NCBI GenBank assembly: GCA_019744775.1 | Contig: JAIETZ010000003.1 | Coordinates: 248,001 to 312,000 of the forward strand | Origin: Candidatus Obscuribacterales bacterium | GTDB lineage: Bacteria; Cyanobacteriota; Vampirovibrionia; Obscuribacterales; Obscuribacteraceae | Length of the DNA stretch: 64,000 nt | Direction of reading: 5' to 3' | Shown here: positions 47,344 through 49,167 of the stretch, piece after piece | How positions within the stretch are numbered: position 1 is the first letter of the stretch | How the letters are laid out: each line of letters begins with the position of its first letter | Notes under the pieces: model-generated | Databases searched by the model: none | What the model was told of the DNA's origin: nothing | What the model saw: the letters and a program-made list of their open reading frames with translations, nothing else | Made by a program: the position numbers and the translations under genes

Positions 47344-47372
47344 TTGACAGTGTATTATAAGTGTATTACACT
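47344..47372 (+). promoter_or_regulatory. Sigma-70-type promoter of the ORF6N gene
   Basis: Perfect -35 TTGACA (47344-47349), 17-base spacer, -10 TACACT (47367-47372). It predicts a transcript start near 47379, so palindrome copy 2 (47414-47438) lies in the 5' leader between promoter and ribosome-binding site. Confidence 0.55.
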
Positions 47373-47413: not shown

Positions 47414-47438
47414 TTGAGATCACAGTTTGTGATCTCAA
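47414..47438 (+). repeat. ORF6N-locus palindrome, copy 2 (in the 5' leader)
   Basis: Arms TTGAGATCACA and TGTGATCTCAA (11 bases each, perfect) around GTT, 25 bases in total. It ends eight bases before the GGAGG (47447-47451) of the ORF6N gene. The position is ideal for an operator or for an mRNA hairpin controlling ribosome access. Confidence 0.88.
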
Positions 47439-47456
47439 GATTAGTTGGAGGTTTAA

Positions 47457-47999
47457 GTGACGACTGACACTCCTGCACAATATGTAGATTCACTGACGTC
47501 TCGCATTCACCTTGTGCGTGGTCAGAAAGTTATGCTTGATGCTGATTTGGCCGAGCTTTACGGCATTTCGACAAGAATTTTTAATCAAGGTGTAAAACGG
47601 AACAGAAGTCGCTTTCCGGTTGACTTCATGTTTCAGCTTACGGTCGAAGAATATGAAAACTTGAGATCACAATTTGTGATCTCAAGTTCCAGATGGGGCG
47701 GTCGACGGTATACTCCTTTGGCGTTTACCGAACACGGCGCAATAATGGCAGCAACGATCTTAAATTCTCAGAAGGCGATGGAGATGAGCGTTTTTATTGT
47801 CCGTGCCTTTGTACAACTTCGGGAGATAATTTCTGCTCATAGTGAGCTAACCGACAAATTACAACAACTAGAAAGCAAAGTATCTGGACACGATCAATCG
47901 ATTGCCGATTTATTTGAGGCAATTCGTCAATTGATGATGCCGCCATCCTCAAAAAAGCGTTTTGTTGGATTTCGCACGGGCGTTGATGGTGAGTCATGA
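47457..47999 (+). CDS. ORF6N-domain DNA-binding protein
   Basis: 180 residues from GTG 47457, with GGAGG five bases upstream. The ORF6N core is unmistakable: RIHLVRGQKVMLDADLAELY, GVKRNRSRFPVDFMFQLTVE, LRSQFVISS, GGRRYTPLAFTEHGAIM and AATILNSQKAMEMSVFIVRA, then a coiled coil (ELTDKLQQLESKVSGHDQSI). ORF6N/KilA-N proteins are phage-type DNA-binding regulators. The codons for residues 68-77 are themselves palindrome copy 3. Two more copies lie upstream and one downstream, suggesting it regulates, or is recognised by, that element. Start of a probable operon with the next gene. Confidence 0.88.
   Translation: MTTDTPAQYVDSLTSRIHLVRGQKVMLDADLAELYGISTRIFNQGVKRNRSRFPVDFMFQLTVEEYENLRSQFVISSSRWGGRRYTPLAFTEHGAIMAATILNSQKAMEMSVFIVRAFVQLREIISAHSELTDKLQQLESKVSGHDQSIADLFEAIRQLMMPPSSKKRFVGFRTGVDGES
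47658..47688 (+). repeat. ORF6N-locus palindrome, copy 3 (inside the ORF6N coding sequence)
   Basis: A 31-base perfect palindrome with 15-base arms (AACTTGAGATCACAA and TTGTGATCTCAAGTT) around a central T. It lies in frame and encodes residues 68-77 of the ORF6N protein (N-LRSQFVISS). It shares 25 of 25 core bases with copy 4. Confidence 0.93.
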
Positions 48000-48033: not shown

Positions 48034-48429
48034 ATGCCTAAACTTACAGACAAACAATTACAACAGCGAAAGCTAGAGATGGCTGCTAGGTCACGCGCTG
48101 CTGTGGCTAAGAAGGAATTAGTCCAGTTCCGTTTAGAGGCTGACCAGATTGTGAAGCTGTTTGAAATCGCAGCGAAGAACGAAATCCACATGGGTACTAT
48201 GCTGCGCCAGTGGGTCAACGAGCGGATAGCTTATGAAGAAACGGGTTCAGGCACTAGCCTATATACGGACAAACAAGAAAACAGAGGCTCATCTGCCGGA
48301 TTTGTTGTGAAGGAACCTACAACTGAACAACTTTATATTAACAATAAACTGGAGCGTGGAATCAATTTGTTAGAGCAGCGCATCGCCAAACTAGAGGAGA
48401 AATCAAGAAACAAGAAGACCAAAACTTGA
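48034..48429 (+). CDS. Hypothetical basic protein downstream of the ORF6N gene
   Basis: 131 residues from ATG 48034, with AGGA nine bases upstream; the 47962 start would overlap the ORF6N gene. A Gln/Arg/Lys-rich N-terminus (TDKQLQQRKLEMAARSRAAV) leads into a short strand and two helices (ELVQFRLEADQIVKLFEIAA, then IHMGTMLRQWVNERI) that resemble a ribbon-helix-helix DNA-binding fold. The C-terminal part is a coiled coil (LERGINLLEQRIAKLEEKS). Its TGA stop (48427-48429) lies inside palindrome copy 4. Possible co-regulator of the ORF6N system. Confidence 0.65.
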   Translation: MPKLTDKQLQQRKLEMAARSRAAVAKKELVQFRLEADQIVKLFEIAAKNEIHMGTMLRQWVNERIAYEETGSGTSLYTDKQENRGSSAGFVVKEPTTEQLYINNKLERGINLLEQRIAKLEEKSRNKKTKT

Positions 48430-48456
48430 GATCACAATTTGTGATCTCAAGTTTTG
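48420..48456 (+). repeat. ORF6N-locus palindrome, copy 4
   Basis: The longest copy: a 37-base perfect palindrome, 18-base arms around a central T, core identical to copy 3. It spans the stop codon of the preceding gene and ends 27 bases upstream of the -35 element of the next promoter, so it could end transcription of the ORF6N operon or act as an operator for the toxin-antitoxin pair. Confidence 0.93.
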
Positions 48457-48510: not shown

Positions 48511-48530
48511 AACTATATGAGGATATGACA

Positions 48531-48764
48531 ATGGCTCAATCTAAACCCGAAGATATTAATCTCGATCAAGTACTAAAGCTCGTAGAGCAGCTTTCGCCCG
48601 AAGACCAGAGCGAACTACGTCGTAAGCTGGACGATTCTTGGTCCAAGCGTTGGTCGGCTCTGGTTCAGCGGATAGAAAAAAGAGCCAAGGATTATCCACC
48701 ATTGTCCGATGAAGAAATCTTGGCGGAAGTGAAAGCAGCTAGAGAAGCGCGTAAGGGTGCTTAG
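48531..48764 (+). CDS. Probable antitoxin of a PIN-domain pair
   Basis: 77 residues from ATG 48531, with GAGG about eight bases upstream (ATG 48525 lies too near it). Acidic N-terminus and helical core (LDQVLKLVEQLSPEDQSELR) with a charged C-terminus (SDEEILAEVKAAREARKG), which looks like the short flexible segment that blocks PIN active sites. It overlaps the PIN gene by eight bases. The family of antitoxin is not named with confidence. Confidence 0.6.
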   Translation: MAQSKPEDINLDQVLKLVEQLSPEDQSELRRKLDDSWSKRWSALVQRIEKRAKDYPPLSDEEILAEVKAAREARKGA

Positions 48765-49167
48765 AGTCGTAATCGATACTAATGTTTGGATCAGTGGACT
48801 CATTAAGTCTGGTCCGCCTGCCAAGATCGTTTCTCTTTTTGCCGCAGGTGTATTTAGGGTTTGTTGTTCAAAGGAAACAATGGATGAACTGGCAGTGGTT
48901 CTTAAACGCCCCAAATTAGCAGATCGTATTGACCTGCTCGATGCCGAACTATTAATTGACTTACTCAATTCCAGCGCACTCCTAGTAAATACTGAAACCG
49001 TTCAGTCGATTGTTAGAGATCCAAAGGATCAGATTTACCTTGCTTGTTCCGATGCAGCAAATGCAGACGTTCTTGTGACTGGCGACAAAGACTTGTTAGT
49101 GCTTAACAGCTACGGACGGACGCGTATAATGGCACCAGCAGAGTTTTGTTCGCTGTTTGCTGAGTGA
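48757..49167 (+). CDS. PIN-domain toxin (putative TA nuclease)
   Basis: 136 residues from GTG 48757. The PIN nuclease signature starts at VVIDTNVWISGLI (first acidic Asp), then ETMDELAVVLKRPKL (Glu), DPKDQIYLACSDAANADVLV and VTGDKDLL (Asp). This matches the putative-PIN toxin family of the VapC/RelE-adjacent type with Mg-dependent RNase activity. It is translated from a start inside the antitoxin gene, the usual arrangement. The module and the ORF6N locus make an accessory island. Confidence 0.85.
   Translation: MLRVVIDTNVWISGLIKSGPPAKIVSLFAAGVFRVCCSKETMDELAVVLKRPKLADRIDLLDAELLIDLLNSSALLVNTETVQSIVRDPKDQIYLACSDAANADVLVTGDKDLLVLNSYGRTRIMAPAEFCSLFAE

Follow-up and report, generated by a model that had tools for sequence, protein, structure and literature searches.

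Operators inside genes are already known. In the lac and gal operons the intragenic site that a repressor recognises is placed within a structural gene, frequently with a second site close to the promoter, and the repressor is that of another gene. Rickettsia palindromic elements are longer stretches of palindromic DNA inside the open reading frames of many unrelated genes. The palindrome described here belongs to the ORF6N domain (PF10543), which together with Bro-N (PF02498) and KilA-N is found in phage antirepressor-type proteins. Like the Rickettsia elements, it is palindromic DNA inside open reading frames; unlike them, it is about 25 bp long, sits at a single place within a single family and is matched to the encoded protein. 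In contrast to the lac and gal sites, it lies in the codons of the regulator's own putative DNA-binding domain, occurs throughout the family and coevolves with the predicted recognition helix. No family known to us holds the regulator's target in the codons of the regulator's own domain throughout, and no literature connecting ORF6N with such an in-gene palindrome was found in a search that left subscription papers and preprints outside.

The window, the whole stretch of 64,000 nt analysed here, encodes one protein of this family, which scores 113.7 bits against the PF10543 profile (curated cut-off 27.8). Four copies of a palindrome are present in the window (Table 1), where 0 were expected from 100 shuffles. 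No further copy with up to two mismatches was found by a search of the whole 4.1-Mb genome, and all four copies lie within 1.2 kb of the single ORF6N gene. The initial annotation had drawn attention to copy 2, with a range (47414-47451) that covers the palindrome plus the ribosome-binding site. The spacings claimed there were confirmed from the sequence: TACACT is followed after 41 nt by copy 2, and copy 2 after 8 nt by GGAGG.

Table 1. Features of the ORF6N locus (positions in the window).
Feature	Position	Strand	Basis and remarks
Copy 1, upstream palindrome TTGAGGTCACAATTTGTGACCTCAA	47253..47277	.	TPR-gene stop about 50 nt before; one arm base changed in G327
Putative sigma-70-like promoter, TTGACA-17-TACACT	47344..47372	+	Sequence (-35 TTGACA 47344-47349, 17-nt spacer, -10 TACACT 47367-47372); 29-nt block identical in G327
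Copy 2, leader palindrome TTGAGATCACAGTTTGTGATCTCAA	47414..47438	.	Two 11-nt arms, 3-nt centre; likely external operator
Ribosome-binding site GGAGG	47447..47451	+	Sequence
ORF6N gene, 180 aa, GTG start	47457..47999	+	Pfam PF10543, E 5e-33; sole one in the genome (genome search)
Helix 2 codons, residues 39-48 (TRIFNQGVKR)	47571..47600	+	Probable recognition helix; AF2 model, mutual information, hold-out
Copy 3, in-gene palindrome encoding LRSQFVIS in the wing loop	47661..47685	.	Putative family-wide self operator
Gene 2, encoding a small protein without family assignment (possibly ribbon-helix-helix)	48034..48429	+	Neighbours ORF6N in G327 too
Copy 4	48426..48450	.	Within a perfect 37-nt palindrome (48420-48456); overlaps the gene 2 stop codon

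The nearest homologues of the locus include L007, from a Candidatus Obscuribacterales MAG of the same family group. The same-genus genome G327 retains copies 1-4 and the promoter block. Its copy 2 is identical apart from the bases beside the centre, and all 25 nt of its copy 3 are unchanged, including third codon positions, next to codons that have diverged. Gene 2 also stands beside ORF6N at loci L276 (2790-3182) and L277 (2316-2744); in G328 it is divergent from ORF6N, with a palindrome between them. Directly after copy 4, the window holds a 79-aa ORF and then a gene for a PIN-domain protein (48525-49167), resembling a toxin-antitoxin pair. G327 differs across the matching stretch and has a further palindrome there instead.

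Copy 3 has counterparts throughout the family. Among 109 loci spread over many phyla, almost every ORF6N gene carries a palindrome at the homologous place, with differing sequence. In a set of 233 ORF6N genes, again of many phyla, 212 form at least eight of nine pairs at this place of the domain (137 form all nine), and symmetry is weaker in the other 21. This count enlarges a first set of 162 distinct genes by 72 further genes. In the first set, scored at positions 2-10, nine pairs were present in 103 genes and eight in 46; codon-preserving synonymous shuffles of the same genes reached 9/9 in 0.11% and 8/9 in 1.5% of cases (1.6% together). The core GGTCRCAAWTTGYGACC is read in two frames, as LRSQ[IF][VA]TS in 184 genes and as EVV[AT]NCDHL in 28. 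LRSQIVTS and EVVTNCDHL both come from this DNA core, at an identical place in the domain, and only these frames keep the TCACA/TGTGA form of the core free of stops. Because of the two reading frames and the shuffle rates, it is the nucleic acid that is kept and not the peptide; conservation at the peptide level is ruled out as the cause. Chance is ruled out as well, since the pattern occurs in 4.2% of control windows versus 63 of 71 ORF6N loci, and the shuffles yielded 0 copies. Symmetric sites near the promoter or within the gene are present above chance, as an operator would require. Among 292 surveyed genomes of the window's phylum, 19 show the pattern, and 16 of these have ORF6N; the matches in the other three are without the family centre. 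Tandem palindromes, some of them imperfect, were observed inside the ORF6N loop of L021, L023, L027, L069, L079 and L091. L027 has one in each reading-frame form, and such tandems are possible intermediates of frame switching.

The bases of the palindrome vary in pairs across ORF6N genes. Mutual information was computed for palindrome positions against the protein columns that are not part of the loop. For position 4 it points to column 42 (z 49, 0.90 nats) and column 39 (z 36), for position 5 again to columns 42 and 39 (z 19 and 11), and for both position 7 and position 8 to column 38 (z 30 and 14), whereas the median z over protein columns is about 0 to 1. Profile columns 38, 39 and 42 lie in helix 2 and correspond to R40, I41 and Q44 of the window protein. 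A code could be read from these pairs: Q42 with a residue other than R at 39 goes with CA, R39 plus E42 with CG, R39 plus Q42 with TG, R42 mostly with GC, and K42 with TC; K38 goes with G at position 7. The prediction rule was fixed before being applied to new genes, which came from genomes in the same class as G307 (a Bacteroidetes MAG), from the phylum to which G304 belongs and from genomes related to that of the window. Predictions were right for position 4 in 59 of 60 genes, for positions 5 and 4 together in 56 of 60 and for position 7 in 56 of 63 (10,000 permutations: mean 16, maximum 29). The code is valid in both reading frames. In a phylogeny from which helix and loop were left out, position 4 has changed 73 times or more; supported independent pairs went 11.6 the same way and 0 the opposite way, and C versus R/K agreed in 9 of 9. 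The site thus follows the probable DNA-reading residues of the encoded protein. Paralogues with different codes in one genome each fit their own palindrome, with four types in G419, and are predicted to use different, mutually orthogonal sites. In the window, the free copies match the code of the window protein at positions 4 and 5, and copy 2 matches its predicted site. From the covariation with the helix and the rule-based prediction in new genes, ORF6N proteins most likely bind their own palindrome directly. Template-switch mutation could instead perfect a quasi-palindrome and keep its arms symmetric with no binding protein involved, which agrees with the retention of symmetry even at variable positions. 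This explanation is extremely unlikely, as conservation of the core sequence extends over both frames and protein residues predict the bases out of sample.

In the AlphaFold model of the window protein (mean pLDDT 82), the covarying R40, I41 and Q44 sit on helix 39-48, and the residues encoded by the palindrome (69-77) form a mostly low-confidence loop between strands 58-60 and 88-90. Weak fold matches were obtained to Ski/Dachshund, to the Mbp1 DNA-binding domain and to RacA/MerR-type winged helices (Z at most 6.6), and helix 2 falls within the part aligned to the RacA and MerR-type winged-helix chains. The likeness of residues 9-117 to MerR/RacA and Mbp1/APSES proteins (Z about 3-5) is too weak to support membership; no sequence match to either group was found, and a sequence search of solved structures returned coiled coils and helical bundles only. 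Two long C-terminal helices in the model suggest that ORF6N dimerises through them.

The initial annotation offered an RNA switch as a second model, in which hairpins of the leader and coding region, or pairing between leader and coding arms, control ORF6N translation. In its favour, the leader folds as stated (-35.7 kcal/mol, z -3.3) with the ribosome-binding site partly paired, and copies 2 and 3 are nearly alike and complementary to each other, so that their arms could pair. However, such hairpins would favour G·U, and among the non-Watson-Crick cells of 168 distinct palindromes 43 are A·C or C·A and only 10 are G·U or U·G. The pattern expected of an RNA switch, with G·U tolerated in the pairing and a structured leader shared among relatives, is not borne out. 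Moreover, the palindrome covaries with a protein helix, most ORF6N genes have no leader copy, and leader and in-gene copies can differ, as in L007. An RNA switch is not supported and is very unlikely, although the leader hairpin may affect translation in the window gene alone. The DNA operator, the other model of the initial annotation, is strongly supported, but its main copy is the in-gene copy 3 and not copy 2: only about one tenth of ORF6N genes have a leader copy of this kind.

Where free copies exist, many of the flanking palindromes are found near the start codon, 228-312 nt ahead of the centre of the in-gene copy, and in several genomes a leader copy stands directly before the start codon. 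In the window, copies 2 and 3 are 247 bp (23.5 turns) apart, a spacing that does not favour looping between them. The specificity of the nearest gene is fitted by 38 of 76 flanking palindromes, a count that includes chance palindromes. In multi-copy genomes leader copies often fit a specificity other than that of their own gene. Clusters of palindromes of several specificities were observed before ORF6N genes in L235, L247, L257 and L258, most of them in multi-copy genomes. Such off-specificity copies need cross-regulation, remnants of lost genes or another role; they may reflect cross-regulation, lost genes (a remnant of a lost ORF6N gene is seen in L257) or copying of the in-gene site, as in L037, where a free copy has flanking bases in common with the in-gene copy. 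At the distant free sites of L011, L025, L032 and L037, no hidden ORF6N genes were found, only short matches centred on the palindrome.

The L037 copy is also what would be expected if the palindrome were mobile or self-copying, a small insertion element for which the ORF6N loop is a safe home. The tandem palindromes within the loop fit this as well. Two palindromes beyond copies 1-4 are present in G327, one of them a 30-nt insertion relative to the window. This palindrome (L276, around 1978), directly past the TPR gene stop, is missing from the window and is a recent gain or loss. A mobile element does not predict covariation with helix residues or near-restriction to genomes with ORF6N, and we regard it as very unlikely to account for the pattern; spread by copying can be compatible with operator function.

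Taken as an operator, the palindrome would act as follows. An ORF6N dimer would bind the in-gene palindrome, which is part of the codons for the inter-strand loop; the window protein would also bind leader copy 2, between promoter and ribosome-binding site, as well as copies 1 and 4, and binding would hold back ORF6N's own transcription. Repression rather than activation is suggested by the position of the sites. We consider it probable, on the basis of sequence comparison, that ORF6N is a dimeric, winged-helix-like protein that binds the palindrome of its own gene, and that the window protein binds copies 1-4 and restrains its own transcription. Each ORF6N gene thus appears to encode a DNA-binding protein plus the site which that protein recognises. 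With the putative operator inside its open reading frame, the gene would take its own regulation along on moving between genomes.

Bro-N was picked as a negative control, and the same feature appeared. Like ORF6N genes, Bro-N genes (L279-L387) have an in-gene palindrome at a fixed place, for example AGTTGTCCGAAAAAATCGGACAACT or AAACCGTGACGAATTGTCACGGTTT. Eight or nine pairs are formed in 60 of 92 genes (4% in shuffles), and covariation of the palindrome is mainly with residues 37-44. In L285 the Bro-N protein has a weak match, far below the cut-off, between its residues 136-222 and the DNA damage response protein DdrC (NCBIfam).

ORF6N and Bro-N likely represent one architecture, in which a gene carries the target of its protein in the codons of the DNA-binding domain. 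Genes of this kind would be portable, orthogonal and co-diversifying self-regulating units with a code readable from the sequence. They could silence incoming copies of the same specificity, as phage immunity groups do. A DNA target and a recognition code are hereby predicted for a large, widespread and little-characterised domain family. If this reading is true, bacteria of different phyla have kept an operator within the codons of the regulator itself, even in two frames, a protein loop yields to the needs of DNA, and the family supplies many natural, orthogonal pairs of protein and site.
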